Assembly (NCBI GenBank): GCA_947499635.1
Contig: CANMPD010000009.1
Span: 1 to 64,000 of the forward strand
DNA from: an uncultured Paracoccaceae bacterium
Lineage (GTDB): Bacteria > Pseudomonadota > Alphaproteobacteria > Rhodobacterales > Rhodobacteraceae
Direction of reading: 5' to 3'
Length of the DNA: 64,000 nt
Numbering within the stretch: position 1 is the first letter of the stretch; the number at the start of each line of letters is the position of its first letter. Below the pieces are notes generated by a model. It was not told the DNA's origin and did no database searches. It saw only the letters and a program-made list of their open reading frames with translations. A program made the position numbers and the translations under genes. This document shows positions 21,257 to 26,239 of this stretch, in pieces.

Positions 21257-22282
21257 TTACTCCTCCTGACGCAGCGCAACCCCGGCACTGTCAAACGCGT
21301 GCAAAAGATGAGTTGGAACCGAAAGACCAACGGTATCCCCCGGCTTTAGGGCGATTGACCCGGGGGTACGCACGGTGATTTGTCCGGCATCACCACAAGA
21401 ACAGATCACATAGGTGTCGGCCCCCAGATATTCCAACAGGTCAACGGTGCCTGTGATTTTCCCGTCAGCCGCCGCGACGATGTCGATATGTTCGGGGCGC
21501 ATGCCTACTGAAACCGTCTGTTCAGGCAGATCAAATGCCGTGGCTGCAGTGGCGGGTATGATGTTCATCGAAGGCGATCCGATGAACTGTGCCACAAACA
21601 GATTTGCAGGTTTTTCATACAGCTCTCGTGGTGTGCCGACCTGTGCGATTTTGCCAAATTCCAACACGACGATCCTGTCGGCCAGTGTCATGGCCTCGAC
21701 CTGATCATGGGTGACATAGATCATCGTCGACTTAAGCGTTTGGTGCAGTTTGGCGATCTCGTACCGCATCTCGACGCGCAGTGCTGCATCGAGGTTTGAA
21801 AGCGGCTCGTCAAACAAAAACGCTGTAGGGTCGCGCACGATGGAGCGGCCAATAGCCACCCGCTGGCGCTGCCCGCCGGACAGGTCTTTGGGGCGGCGTT
21901 CCATATAGTCGTCAAGTTTCAAAATACGCGCGGCATCCCCAACCTTGGCGTCGATCTCAGCTTTGGGCAGCCCTGCGGATTTCAAGGGAAACCCTACATT
22001 TTCGCGCACAGTCATATGCGGGTAGAGCGCATAAGATTGGAACACCATCGCCAACCCCCGTGCGCTGGGGGGCTGTGCTGTGACGTCGCGATCCTCAATC
22101 AGGATTTCCCCGCGCGAGGTTTCCTCTAGTCCGGCAATCATACGCAACAGCGTGGATTTCCCGCAGCCAGAGGGGCCGACAAAGACGATAAATTCAGCAT
22201 CTTTGATTTCAAGATCCACGCCTTTGATGACCTGTGTGGAGCCAAACCATTTTTCAACGGCCCGTAGGGTGATGGATGACAT
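21257..22282 (-). CDS. ABC transporter ATPase, MalK/UgpC type
   Basis: A 341-aa sugar-type ATPase with Walker A GPSGCGKST, signature LSGGQRQRVAIGRSI, Walker B FLFDEPLSNLD and a C-terminal TOBE/MalK regulatory domain (GMRPEHIDI). Last gene of a minus-strand operon after SBP, MalF-like and MalG-like genes. Such ATPases energise uptake of sugars, polyols or glycerol phosphate. Confidence 0.9.
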   Translation of the reverse strand: MSSITLRAVEKWFGSTQVIKGVDLEIKDAEFIVFVGPSGCGKSTLLRMIAGLEETSRGEILIEDRDVTAQPPSARGLAMVFQSYALYPHMTVRENVGFPLKSAGLPKAEIDAKVGDAARILKLDDYMERRPKDLSGGQRQRVAIGRSIVRDPTAFLFDEPLSNLDAALRVEMRYEIAKLHQTLKSTMIYVTHDQVEAMTLADRIVVLEFGKIAQVGTPRELYEKPANLFVAQFIGSPSMNIIPATAATAFDLPEQTVSVGMRPEHIDIVAAADGKITGTVDLLEYLGADTYVICSCGDAGQITVRTPGSIALKPGDTVGLSVPTHLLHAFDSAGVALRQEE

Positions 22283-22367
22283 TAGGGGCGTCCTTTTTGC
22301 GTAGTATCACGGTGCGTCAACGCCACGCAGGCGGCGTGGCAGTGTGTGGAATAGGTTGGTAGGTGTC

Positions 22368-23576
22368 TCATCCTTTGACCGATCCGGCAGTCAGCCCTTT
22401 GGTCATGAAGCGTTCCAGACCCAAGAACAGTGCCATGATGGGCACGGTTGCAATCACGGATCCCGCCATCAGGTGCTGGCGTGGGATTTCTGACGAATTC
22501 AACGCTGCGATCCCGCGCGTGAGGGTGAATTTGGATGGATCATCCAGCAGCATAAATGCCAGTAGAAATTCGTTCCAGGCGATCATGAACACATAAAGCG
22601 ACACAGACGCGAGGGCCGGCAGAGACAGCGGCAGGGTGATCTTCCAGATCACCGCCAATCTTGACAGACCATCCATCAGCCCGGCCTCTTCGACCTCGGC
22701 AGGTAGGCCGCGAAAATAGCCCTGCAACATGTAAAGCGCCACAGGAATGGTTGTAACCGGGTAGATCATGACGATGCCCCAGAACGAATTGCGCAGACCG
22801 GTCATGGAAAAGGCGATGTAGATTGGCAGCGCAAGAACGATCATCGGAACCATATAAATCAGCAAGATCGAGCGCGAAAAGGCAGCGCGTCCCCGAAACC
22901 GCAGCCGCGCAACTGCATAGGCGCCCGGGATGGCAAAGGCCAATGTGATCGCCACAGTCAGCACCGAGATAAAGAACGAGTTGAACAGATAGGTGCCAAA
23001 ATGGAACTGAGTGAACAGCTCGTGATAGGATCGCAACAACGCGGTGCCTTGGGTTAGGTCAATCGAGAAATCCAACGGATTTTGCATCAGTTCTGATTGA
23101 TTTTTCAGGCTGGTCATCACCATGACGTAAAACGGGATCAGCACAATGGCGGTAAAGAAGATATAGCCGAAACCGGTGAGAAACCGGATGATTGCGGCTT
23201 CGAATATGTGGCGCGAGAGACTGTGCGGCCCCACGTCTGTCAGGATCATCTTGAGCGTGATGGCAAAACTGGCGGCAAGGAGTGCGGCCGCAATCACGCT
23301 GGCGGGTAAGCTTGCGGTTGGCCCAAAGGAGATCGGACCTATTGCGACCAGCGTCACAAGGGCAAGCGCCGCCCCGACTGCGAGCTGAGCTGTGCGCCCA
23401 GTGCCAAAGCGGGTCATCCCCATACCAAGGGCCGCGCCCCATAACAGCGCCCATAAGATATGCGGGCGAAACGGATCGCCTGTGGCAAAGGAGAGCGTGA
23501 CGGCAATGGTCGTCGCCAACACCACCATCCACAAAGCCCCAAGGACAGGTGCAGTGATATAGCCGTGACGGATCAT
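22368..23576 (-). CDS. ABC transporter permease, MalG type with extra N-terminal membrane segments
   Basis: A 402-aa MalG-like permease; the family is usually 270-300 aa. The standard part runs from about residue 130 (ITLKMILTD, FYVMVMTSLKNQ) with the EAA loop EVEEAGLMDGLSRLAVIWKI. The extra 110-120 N-terminal residues are hydrophobic and look like about four membrane segments (for example FGYIFFTAIVLIPF follows them). It overlaps the MalF-like gene by four bases. The role of the extension is unknown. Confidence 0.85.
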   Translation of the reverse strand: MIRHGYITAPVLGALWMVVLATTIAVTLSFATGDPFRPHILWALLWGAALGMGMTRFGTGRTAQLAVGAALALVTLVAIGPISFGPTASLPASVIAAALLAASFAITLKMILTDVGPHSLSRHIFEAAIIRFLTGFGYIFFTAIVLIPFYVMVMTSLKNQSELMQNPLDFSIDLTQGTALLRSYHELFTQFHFGTYLFNSFFISVLTVAITLAFAIPGAYAVARLRFRGRAAFSRSILLIYMVPMIVLALPIYIAFSMTGLRNSFWGIVMIYPVTTIPVALYMLQGYFRGLPAEVEEAGLMDGLSRLAVIWKITLPLSLPALASVSLYVFMIAWNEFLLAFMLLDDPSKFTLTRGIAALNSSEIPRQHLMAGSVIATVPIMALFLGLERFMTKGLTAGSVKG

Positions 23577-24817
23577 AGGCCTTCCTCTCTGCTGATGTAT
23601 TTCATGAATAAAATGGAAAAGGACAGCAGACAGCCAAATATGACCACCGCAACCGCTGCACCTGCGCCAATGTTTGAAACGTCAAAGGCCTGTTCATAAA
23701 CATTCACAGTCAAGGTGCGTGTGCCTGCGTTGCCGCCGGTCAGCAGGAAGATATCGTCGAACTTGTTAAACGTCCAAATAAACCGCAGTAGGAACAACAC
23801 GCTGAGAATACCCAACAATTGCGGCACGCTGAGGTACCAAAACTGTTGGAACGGCGAGGCTCCGTCCATGTCGGCGGCTTCATACATATCGGTATCTATG
23901 CTTTGCATCCGCGCGAGGATGAAGAGGAACGACAGCGGGAAATAGCGCCAGATTTCAAACACGGTCACCATGATCAGGGCCAGAGGACGTTCACCGAAAA
24001 AGTTGATGGCTTCGCTGGTCACGCCCATCTGGATCAACAGCGCATTGGCCGATCCCGAGAACGGATCAAATAGAATGAGCCATGCAAAGGCCACCGCAAT
24101 AACCGGCGCGACGTAGGGAAATAGATAAAGCCCGCGCAGGATACCTTGGCCGCGGAAGGATTTATTTAACAACATCGCCGCAAACAGACCAACCAGCAAC
24201 GCGCCGACTGTGCCGAAGACGGTATAAAACAACGTGACCCAGAGGACTTCGAAAAACTCGTCGCCTTGAAAGATGCGGGCAAAGTTTTCCAAGGTAAAGG
24301 TGTCATTTGTCAGGACATTAGATCCGGTCCCCGTGGTTGTGGCAGGGCTGTCTTGGGGGCGTAACCCGTTGGTCAAATAGGCCTGTTCAAGGGTGACAGG
24401 GATGGTCAAGGTTTCGCGCGTGCCGGGATCCCAATCGCCCAAATCACAAAACAGCGCGCGTTCGTCTAATGTGCAGCGCGGGTCTAGGGTTTGAACGATC
24501 AACCCCAAGGGCAGGGTGTCGGACAGGGTGACCCCTGTGATGGGCTTATCACGCGACGAATTTCGCAGACGATAGCGAATGTTGGCCTGATCGCCGACGG
24601 CTTTGGTATCGCCGCGGATGTCTTCGCGGGCAACGACTTCGGGGGCGCGCAGGTCGGCCAGTTCGACCGGCTTAAATGAAATCCAAAAAATGGACAAAAG
24701 CGGCAGCAAGACCACTAGGGCCACCGATGCGATGGTTGGGAACAGCAAGCCCCAAGCGAGGCGGGCCTCGCGTTTGGCAAGGGGGCCTGCACCGTGCACA
24801 GGACGCGGTTTCGTCAT
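23573..24817 (-). CDS. ABC transporter permease, MalF type with DUF11-like periplasmic insert
   Basis: A 414-aa MalF-like permease with its EAA loop at YEAADMDGASPFQQFWYLSV. Between TM1 (about 20-48) and TM2 lies an insert of about 130 residues. Its pattern, YRLRNSSRDKPITGVTLSD followed by TLPLGL, then CTLDERALFCDLGDWDPGT, matches DUF11-type immunoglobulin-like repeats. E. coli MalF has its periplasmic domain in a different loop and fold. The insert probably faces the periplasm near the binding protein. Paired with the extended MalG-like gene downstream. Confidence 0.85.
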   Translation of the reverse strand: MTKPRPVHGAGPLAKREARLAWGLLFPTIASVALVVLLPLLSIFWISFKPVELADLRAPEVVAREDIRGDTKAVGDQANIRYRLRNSSRDKPITGVTLSDTLPLGLIVQTLDPRCTLDERALFCDLGDWDPGTRETLTIPVTLEQAYLTNGLRPQDSPATTTGTGSNVLTNDTFTLENFARIFQGDEFFEVLWVTLFYTVFGTVGALLVGLFAAMLLNKSFRGQGILRGLYLFPYVAPVIAVAFAWLILFDPFSGSANALLIQMGVTSEAINFFGERPLALIMVTVFEIWRYFPLSFLFILARMQSIDTDMYEAADMDGASPFQQFWYLSVPQLLGILSVLFLLRFIWTFNKFDDIFLLTGGNAGTRTLTVNVYEQAFDVSNIGAGAAVAVVIFGCLLSFSILFMKYISREEGL

Positions 24818-24886: not shown

Positions 24887-26239
24887 TTACTGGACGGCGG
24901 CAATTGCGCTGTTCAGTTCGGCGACAGTTGCGGCTGCGTCCCGTTCTCCATCAATGTATTCGCGCACAAGACGGTTCACGACCTGACTGTTGATGATGGC
25001 CGAGGCTGCGGCCAACTGACCATCGGCGACACCCCAACGTTGCGCCACATCGAGACCGCTGACGATTTCATCAATCATTTCAGGATCATAGAGCGCACCA
25101 AGAGAGGCTTTGCGATCGACACCTACGTCAAGGGTGGCCCAAAGGTCAGCGTATTGGGTTGCATTCTCTGCGGTGCCACGCCGCACGGGGAATTTGCCCT
25201 CAGGGGCGATGGCTAGTGTCGCGCTGTAGCCGTCGCTGAGCGAATATTCGACAAACTCCATCGCCGCATCTGTTGCTGCATCAGCGGTGATCCCAAAATA
25301 GTTCACATCCGCCCAAGCTGCGCCAGCAGGATTTGAAGGCCCTGAGAAATTGGTGACGATCCCTGTCGCCGCCGCCAAGGCAGGAGACGTTGGGTCATCG
25401 TTGAGTGTTGGTGGCGCGCTGTCACGCAGGCCGGCCAACTCGTCCAAGATAAAGGGGGACCAGATAATCATGGCCGCATCGCCTGCGAAATAGAGTGTGC
25501 GAGACTGATCCCAATACAAGTCACCGGGTGGTGAAGCTTCGGCGATGGCTTTGTAGAATTCCAAAACTTCGATGGTTGCGGTTTCATCCAGCGGCTGTAC
25601 GCCGTCGGGCCCCACAGGCGATACACCATTGGCGAGGAACACATGTTCCAGAACTTGGCTCATGAAGTTCTCGTCAATCTTGGTGGCGGCGACAAAGCCA
25701 TACATTTCCGGTGGATTGTGCAACGCCTTGAGCGCGGCGGTGACATTGGCAAACGAGTTCGGAGGCGCGAGGCCTTTTTCTGCAAACAGATCCGCGCGAT
25801 AGACCACCATTTGTGTCCAGCCATCGACCGGCGTAGAGGCATAGCCGCCATCGACGGCAGCCATTGCCAGCGCACCGGGGGCAAAGGTGTCTGCGCCAAG
25901 GTTTTCAATGACGTCGGTTGCGGCATCAATATCGAGAATACCAGCCTCGGCCCAAGGGGCGGCATATTGTAGAGTGTGATAGATCACATCCGGTAGATCA
26001 CCGGCCGCGAAAGCCGCAGTGGCGCGCGTGCCCAAGTCGTTTTCCGAGACAGGAATTACTTCGACGGAATGGCCCGTTTTGGCGGCAAAATCTGCGGCCA
26101 TTTCCTGTTGACGTGCAAGGCGCTCGGGTTGTTCTTCGGTTGTCCAGAAACGCAGATCCTCTGCTGTGGCTGTGGACGCTGCAAGAACAAGCGCCAGTGC
26201 CGCGCCAGATCGCAGGACGGATGTTAGATTTAAATGCAT
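24887..26239 (-). CDS. ABC transporter sugar-type binding protein (family 1)
   Basis: A 450-aa exported family-1 extracellular binding protein. The signal peptide ends TATAED, followed by LRFWTTEEQPERL and GDLPDVIYHTLQYAAPWAEA, typical of the ligand cleft start. First gene of a four-gene importer operon on the minus strand. Ligands of this family are oligosaccharides, sugar alcohols or glycerol-3-phosphate; nothing in the sequence specifies which. Confidence 0.88.
   Translation of the reverse strand: MHLNLTSVLRSGAALALVLAASTATAEDLRFWTTEEQPERLARQQEMAADFAAKTGHSVEVIPVSENDLGTRATAAFAAGDLPDVIYHTLQYAAPWAEAGILDIDAATDVIENLGADTFAPGALAMAAVDGGYASTPVDGWTQMVVYRADLFAEKGLAPPNSFANVTAALKALHNPPEMYGFVAATKIDENFMSQVLEHVFLANGVSPVGPDGVQPLDETATIEVLEFYKAIAEASPPGDLYWDQSRTLYFAGDAAMIIWSPFILDELAGLRDSAPPTLNDDPTSPALAAATGIVTNFSGPSNPAGAAWADVNYFGITADAATDAAMEFVEYSLSDGYSATLAIAPEGKFPVRRGTAENATQYADLWATLDVGVDRKASLGALYDPEMIDEIVSGLDVAQRWGVADGQLAAASAIINSQVVNRLVREYIDGERDAAATVAELNSAIAAVQ

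Follow-up and report, generated by a model that had tools for sequence, protein, structure and literature searches.

Among described ATP-binding cassette (ABC) importers, the closest parallel to the locus considered here is the Escherichia coli system MalFGK2-MalE, whose membrane subunit MalF carries the periplasmic domain MalF_P2 (MalF residues 100-260). This P2 domain is immunoglobulin-like (Ig-like). It contacts the binding protein MalE (PMC3150292), and titles of cited papers report an interaction of the MalF loop with MalE. A 2008 study described a 180-residue loop between transmembrane helices TM3 and TM4 of MalF, which Thermotogales share and which other lineages lack or have in a smaller form, and called its function unknown (PMC2246101). 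Some CUT1 importers carry a large periplasmic domain on one permease and others do not, and a further domain of unrelated sequence in this loop provides an independent way to ask what domains of this sort do. Here we analyse a sugar permease gene that holds a domain of another type, related to Pfam DUF11, at this loop; it lies in a stretch of 64,000 nucleotides from an uncultured marine Paracoccaceae bacterium (contig CANMPD010000009.1), hereafter termed the window.

Entry 9ifr is a DUF11 domain solved by crystallography, and its authors gave the domain the new name CLIPPER (PMC12617251). In the permease described here, a domain of this type stands outside its usual surface-protein setting. 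At slightly better than even, we read the locus as a CUT1 importer, likely for the stress-protecting solute glucosylglycerate, whose CLIPPER-type insert was probably gained in one event and acts as a P2-like dock for the binding protein.

A DUF11-like domain after the first core helix

The permease gene stands second in an operon of four genes, which also encodes a binding protein, a MalG-type second permease and a UgpC-type ATPase (Table 1), and the start codon of the MalG-type gene overlaps its stop codon. An earlier reading of the sequence alone (the sequence-only reading) had given the limits of the gene exactly; we add that it lies on the minus strand, with an ATG at 24817 and a stop ending at 23573. 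The permease has a BPD_transp_1 core (56.4 bits, Pfam) and the EAA-x3-G coupling motif of ABC permeases (PMC3150292), and with the binding protein, second permease and MalK/UgpC-type ATPase of the same operon this gene content is that of a CUT1-type ABC importer. It scores 84.7 bits for the maltose permease MalF (NF008232), where the equivalog level is 392 bits, and the five full-length plasmid records label it “sugar ABC transporter permease”.

Table 1. Coordinates of the transporter genes, their parts and associated features (window positions unless a locus is named)
Feature	Position	Strand	Basis
Extracellular solute-binding protein, SBP_bac_1 family, operon gene 1	24887..26239	-	Pfam
MalF/UgpA-type permease with DUF11-like insert, 414 aa	23573..24817 (stop included)	-	open reading frame, Pfam
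TM1, residues 28-46	24680..24736	-	hydropathy peak
Inserted Ig-like beta-sandwich domain (predicted), residues 60-165	24323..24640	-	Pfam, predicted fold
Pfam DUF11 match, residues 70-150	24368-24610	-	Pfam
Insert stretch delimited by invariant C115 and C124	24446..24475	-	alignment
Permease core BPD_transp_1, residues 207-409	23591..24199	-	Pfam
EAA-x3-G coupling motif, starts at residue 313	within 23591..24199	-	alignment
MalG-type second permease, 402 aa	22368..23576	-	Pfam
N-terminal hydrophobic extension of MalG-type subunit, residues 1-128	23193..23576	-	hydropathy
85-base gap, site of MGH1-like glycoside hydrolase homologue in 72/80 related loci	22283..22367	.	blastp
UgpC/MalK-type ATPase with TOBE domain	21257..22282	-	Pfam/NCBIfam
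Probable glucosylglycerate cluster: GH13 phosphorylase, GpgS-like synthase, MPGP-family phosphatase	L108:7391-11176 = contig 6, 95390-99175

The family counts given below refer to the permease together with the best 80 of at least 570 relatives ranked by full-length similarity, 81 sequences in total. The insert is present in 81/81 of these, and the distance between one fixed pair of anchor columns is 123-129 residues throughout; the count expresses conservation and not frequency, since the best full-length relatives had been chosen and one search peptide lay within the insert. From TM1 to the core the gap is 126 residues (the sequence-only reading gave about 130 between TM1 and TM2), and it measures 122-127 residues in 21 insert-bearing permeases, 12-17 in eight insertless ones (a set that excludes SugA) and 168 in E. 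coli MalF. TM1 aligns to MalF residues of about 64-92 and residue 176 onward to MalF 261 onward; because TM1 and the core thus align to the parts of MalF that flank P2, the insert occupies the P2 position, between the first and the next core helix. Membership of the MalF_P2 family was nevertheless rejected on sequence, as the insert had no Pfam match to MalF_P2 (PF14785) at E<=1 and hhalign of the insert against one MalF-P2 sequence gave a probability of 0.1%.

A Pfam search with the insert alone matched DUF11 (PF01345) at 27.7 bits, above the gathering cut-off of 24.6, and the whole permease scored slightly below it at 24.3 bits (E 4.1e-5). In individual Pfam scans of 65 of the 81 sequences, the window's permease among them, DUF11 was found at E <= 0.01 in 49 and the permease core in all 65. 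Run against the whole own genome, the DUF11 model returned zero matches at E <= 0.01, this insert included, and the match is weak at that search scale; the same search offered no donor for the insert. The DUF11 identity put forward from the sequence alone is supported because 49 of the 65 family members match and because the predicted fold agrees. Modelled alone by AlphaFold, with 64 of the 81 family members in the input alignment, the insert reached a mean pLDDT (the model's per-residue confidence) of 82 and a pTM (its overall-fold confidence) of 0.72, with pLDDT block means of 88-94 for residues 11-100 of this domain model, against 45-66 at its ends. In the full-length model its block means were about 84-89; since the core of that model was poor (pTM 0.34, mean pLDDT 61), the insert region alone was used. 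Foldseek gave one match at E <= 0.001 (3ndy), followed by 9ifr at 1.2e-3, and among the 50 matches listed by VIA-align, beta-sandwich domains were aligned at Z 9.1-10.3, including 9ifr (Z 9.7, root-mean-square deviation 2.6, 105 residues, 20% identity) and the cellulose- or chitin-binding domains 6qfs (Z 10.3) and 3ndy (Z 9.8). MalF chains are not among the 50 rows given in the fold tables, a missing row to which we attach no weight. A PDB sequence search with the insert profile returned only weak matches, to proteins of no evident kinship (best E 0.19), so the link between the insert and 9ifr rests on the fold and the Pfam profile. The insert is confidently predicted to be an Ig-like beta-sandwich of the DUF11/CLIPPER type, with a fold presumably of the CnaA kind, and the Ig-like fold expected by the sequence-only reading was thus recovered in the prediction.

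Six residues of the insert, R83, N86, S88, C115, C124 and G127, are invariant in 65/65 aligned sequences, and the two cysteines may perhaps form a disulfide. As a whole, the insert is the more variable part: identity to the window's permease averages 0.60 over residues 69-150 and 0.88 in the core, and the mean distance is 0.749 in the insert and 0.152 in the core, about five times more variation. In 9ifr an isopeptide bond, for which an Asp is catalytic, joins a Lys to an Asn; according to its authors, some DUF11 domains have not kept this bond (PMC12617251). Looked for in the columns of the insert family rather than by residue-level alignment to 9ifr, this Lys-Asp-Asn triad, which DUF11 membership does not require, was not found: Asp100 is kept in 80/81 sequences, and lysine in the first strand (columns 58-71) occurs in at most 2/81 among the residues printed for any column. 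With no lysine conserved in that strand, we do not expect the insert to form an isopeptide bond.

Distribution of the insert and the extended MalG-type partner

On a core-only tree of 30 hand-chosen rows, 21 insert-bearing permeases group together with a support of 92/80, below the starred level; an insertless permease of Nonomuraea adjoins the group and MalF lies far away, with the placement of the outgroups unsure because of long branches. A DUF11/CLIPPER-type domain was probably inserted once into the loop after TM1. Within the genus, a full-length match was found in 5/17 genomes at 58-76% identity, and the core only in two more. Across Pseudomonadota, with at most four candidates scored per genome, an insert-covering match (E <= 1e-45) was found in 16/398 genomes, own included, beyond which identity falls from 60% to 36% with core-only coverage. 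An insert-profile search of Alphaproteobacteria found it in 10/385 genomes, own included, from eight families, in frames of 423-487 codons. The permease also occurs in Vibrionaceae (Enterovibrio, Grimontia), and in the plasmid records, which were the means of covering phyla beyond Pseudomonadota, at least 80% of the protein is covered in 5/796 matching records, all Alphaproteobacteria by name. Such a patchy spread fits an accessory operon that is mobile or often lost. Apparent inserts in Marinovum and Rhizobium were rejected, being upstream DNA read in frame; the open reading frames there have 14-residue loops. One of the ten alphaproteobacterial genomes, from the same family as the window (L128 and L135), has a further match to the insert profile in a 3202-codon frame; this match is weak (E 8.6e-4), and the frame could perhaps encode a large surface protein with DUF11-like repeats.

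The MalG-type partner is unusual in its own way, as its N-terminus carries about 120 extra residues with three, perhaps four, hydrophobic helices that match no Pfam family. This extension is present in 4/4 insert-bearing outside records (L093, L094, L101, L102) and absent in 5/5 insertless ones (L097, L099, L100, L103, L104). Over 77 loci and the window, trimmed to the window's start, 76 of 78 MalG-type proteins have 390-409 residues. In two loci (L006, L064) the MalG-type gene was matched in two pieces, which suggests a frameshift or an assembly error.

Linked enzymes and the likely substrate

A homologue of MGH1-like glycoside hydrolases was found by blastp on the 3' side of the MalG-type gene in most of the related loci (72/80), before the ATPase gene where the locus extends that far, and a LacI-type gene usually heads the operon (single-query blastp matches in 64/80 loci, some of them low-identity paralogues). 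The corresponding 85-base gap of the window holds no hydrolase gene. It does show, by eye, an apparent hairpin (CCACGC ... GCGTGG) ahead of the ATPase gene. All three hydrolases scanned belong to the Pfam family MGH1-like (PF22422, 361-397 bits), and their closest PDB entries are Thermus TTHA0978 (2z07/4wva, 333 bits) and then the mycobacterial hydrolase (195-202 bits). Seventeen positions, chosen among the catalytic and ligand-contact residues given in PMC6608630, were mapped by alignment; they comprise Asp182 and Glu419 as well as Tyr36, Trp40, Tyr88, Arg216 and Tyr375, which contact the glycerate, among others. Of these, 16 of the 17 are invariant in 72/72 hydrolase homologues, with both catalytic residues kept. 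The hydrolase homologue also adjoins the transporter in 6/6 further divergent loci, where it is 33-53% identical. In L132, one of these six, two further genes adjoin the operon, a GpgS-like one and one for a HAD phosphatase. A gene of the N-acylglucosamine 2-epimerase type lies by the operon at L132:9629-10810 (Pfam-confirmed) and, with a similar start, at L131:8867-10048; a possible role is isomerisation of the hexose set free, in line also with mannosylglycerate as substrate.

In the window's own genome (98% complete) no hydrolase was found by a search with working controls. On contig 6, however, this genome encodes a member of glycoside hydrolase family 13 (GH13) that shares 40% identity with E. 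coli YcjM, annotated as a glucosylglycerate phosphorylase, and the enzyme has both PYELN and TETN, the motifs characteristic of that phosphorylase (PMC10608839). Beside it lie a GpgS-like gene (341 bits) and a gene of the mannosyl-3-phosphoglycerate phosphatase (MPGP) family that scores above the subfamily cut-off. Eight of the 80 loci have no hydrolase in the locus; L027, cut by a contig end, was left out of the comparison, and L052, with a hydrolase elsewhere in its genome, was counted among the hydrolase-bearing genomes. The phosphorylase is present in 6/6 assessable hydrolase-less genomes and in 26/73 others (one-sided Fisher p 0.003, a value that ignores kinship). These phosphorylases form a group with 64-76% identity to that of the own genome, and PYELN is present in three of the six from hydrolase-less genomes (L109, L110, L111). 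Paroceanicella (L102) has no hydrolase on its plasmid, and a GH13 enzyme related to the own-genome phosphorylase stands upstream there.

The transporter family is thus linked, in operon or genome and by homology, to enzymes of glucosylglycerate or mannosylglycerate, and the substrate is most likely glucosylglycerate, with mannosylglycerate possible. The simplest reading of the gene content would be uptake of glucosylglycerate followed by hydrolysis or phosphorolysis. A number of points weigh against this assignment. The hydrolase is nearer to the Thermus entry than to the mycobacterial enzyme, all three scanned hydrolases score 316-321 bits, below the NCBIfam glucosylglycerate hydrolase cut-off of 550, and the position of Gln434 is Phe in 72/72. 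The GpgS-like gene falls below its cut-off of 700 bits, and the phosphorylase of the own genome lies on another contig, unlinked to the transporter. As to the hydrolase-less genomes, five of the six are presumably close relatives, judging by genus name; their completeness is not given; three of their phosphorylases (L112-L114) have TETN without the PYE motif; and the genome of L066 (G435 contig 8) has three weak PF22422 matches in long frames (27-28 bits, slightly above the cut-off), which were not counted as an operon hydrolase. That the substrate is instead another alpha-glucoside or sugar would suit the breadth of CUT1 systems, the missing hydrolase gene in the window's operon and these sub-threshold scores, but two unrelated enzyme types that share glucosylglycerate accompany the transporter family, and the L132 operon adjoins a GpgS-like gene and a HAD phosphatase, so that we regard another substrate as distinctly unlikely. 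In open-licence literature no dedicated ABC importer of this type for glucosylglycerate was found among the matches listed. Glucosylglycerate is a major solute of Prochlorococcus NATL2A, and the Prochlorococcus glucosylglycerate operon holds a putative transporter gene (PMC11631117). The insert-permease family would mark a probable route of glucosylglycerate uptake in marine heterotrophs.

Role of the insert and comparison with known systems

From its position and its homology to MalF the insert should face the periplasm, and it is best read as an independently acquired analogue of MalF P2. The binding protein would capture glucosylglycerate in the periplasm and dock on both permeases, with the insert reaching out from the first core helix to hold or orient it on the permease pair as P2 does and thereby help to relay the ligand-bound signal to the ATPase. 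The UgpC-type ATPase would hydrolyse ATP for import of the solute, which the own-genome phosphorylase would then probably recycle. The sequence-only reading had suggested that the insert may dock the binding protein or a cell-envelope partner, and its interpretation is borne out in part. We give docking of the binding protein by the insert about an even chance; it is plausible because the insert holds the place of P2, which contacts MalE. Over 77 loci and the window, insert distances correlate with those of the binding protein (partial r 0.27 with core and ATPase controlled, permutation 0.002). Other observations count against the reading as a whole, and we list them together. Insert distances also correlate with those of the MalG-type core (partial r 0.18, permutation 0.004), and, given the core alone, the insert follows the cytoplasmic ATPase (0.43) no less closely than the binding protein (0.39); because of these correlations there is no docking-specific signal, and co-variation of distances was dropped as a proof of docking. 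The roughly five-fold divergence of the insert relative to the core is unexpected at a tight interface, the short loops of the eight insertless relatives imply that such a domain is not generally needed, and the support of Foldseek for the fold is, taken alone, moderate.

Some of these same observations would suit other roles. The insert may tether or stabilise the transporter in the envelope, by way of peptidoglycan, of a further membrane protein or of subunit assembly that involves the extended MalG-type partner; this we hold to be unlikely, for although the typical place of DUF11/CLIPPER domains is the stalk of surface proteins (PMC12617251), the MalG-type extension accompanies the insert in four of four outside records against none of five insertless ones, and the insert diverges fast, it is a single copy with no repeat stalk, its partial r with the extension is -0.006 (core and ATPase controlled) and its place is that of a domain known to contact a binding protein. 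A neutral or merely stabilising domain, captured by chance and tolerated, agrees with the 12-17 residues that insertless relatives have there and with the lower conservation of the insert relative to the core. It appears quite improbable to us when a length of 123-129 residues is kept in 81/81 sequences, also in divergent loci, and six residues never vary. The resemblance of the fold to the cellulose- and chitin-binding domains 6qfs and 3ndy brings to mind a carbohydrate-binding-like sandwich that captures and concentrates the substrate, but these matches are tied with beta-sandwiches of adaptin, integrin and macroglobulin, no binding-site residues were identified in the insert, the solute is a small one for which a binding protein is already present, and we consider this role highly improbable. 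Functional readings of the carbohydrate-binding, adaptin, integrin and macroglobulin matches were dropped on account of the tied scores.

A broader proposal can be made, which we put forward tentatively and would sooner doubt than defend. A CLIPPER domain of adhesin stalks would have been recruited once, perhaps in Alphaproteobacteria, to become a convergent P2-like dock, and with the new N-terminal module of the MalG-type partner it would define a doubly elaborated class of transporter for the charged osmolyte glucosylglycerate.

To place the P2-like dock that we favour among known systems, E. coli MalF is likewise of the CUT1 type, with a domain of more than 100 residues in the same loop and with binding protein, MalG and MalK partners. 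It differs in that its P2 is unrelated by sequence, the whole proteins are 26% identical, the two are distant on the tree and the insert region has 126 residues here and 168 in MalF; furthermore, the N-terminal extra helices belong to MalF itself (MalF_N_TM) and here to the MalG-type partner instead. The six-helix permeases of the UgpA/SugA/GlcT type share the core match and EAA-x3-G, and SugA is the best PDB relative of the permease (8ja7, E 1.1e-25), with TM1 and the core aligned as separate stretches and the insert left unmatched. E. coli YcjNOP, which carries the annotation “putative” only, is likewise a putative sugar importer with a YcjM gene, and YcjN is 24% identical to the binding protein, whereas YcjO has a 14-residue loop and no insert. 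The fibrillar-adhesin DUF11/CLIPPER domain (9ifr) shares with the insert the Pfam profile and the beta-sandwich alignment; there it forms stalk repeats and here a single copy inside a membrane permease, which has an invariant cysteine pair and no conserved lysine in the first strand. No DUF11-bearing permease was found in open-licence literature among the matches listed, and the words “permease” and “transporter” occur nowhere in the CLIPPER paper (PMC12617251). The statement of the sequence-only reading that no MalF-type permease with this insert was known needs correcting as to the site, which is familiar from MalF_P2: what seems new at this loop is the domain type, not the place of insertion.

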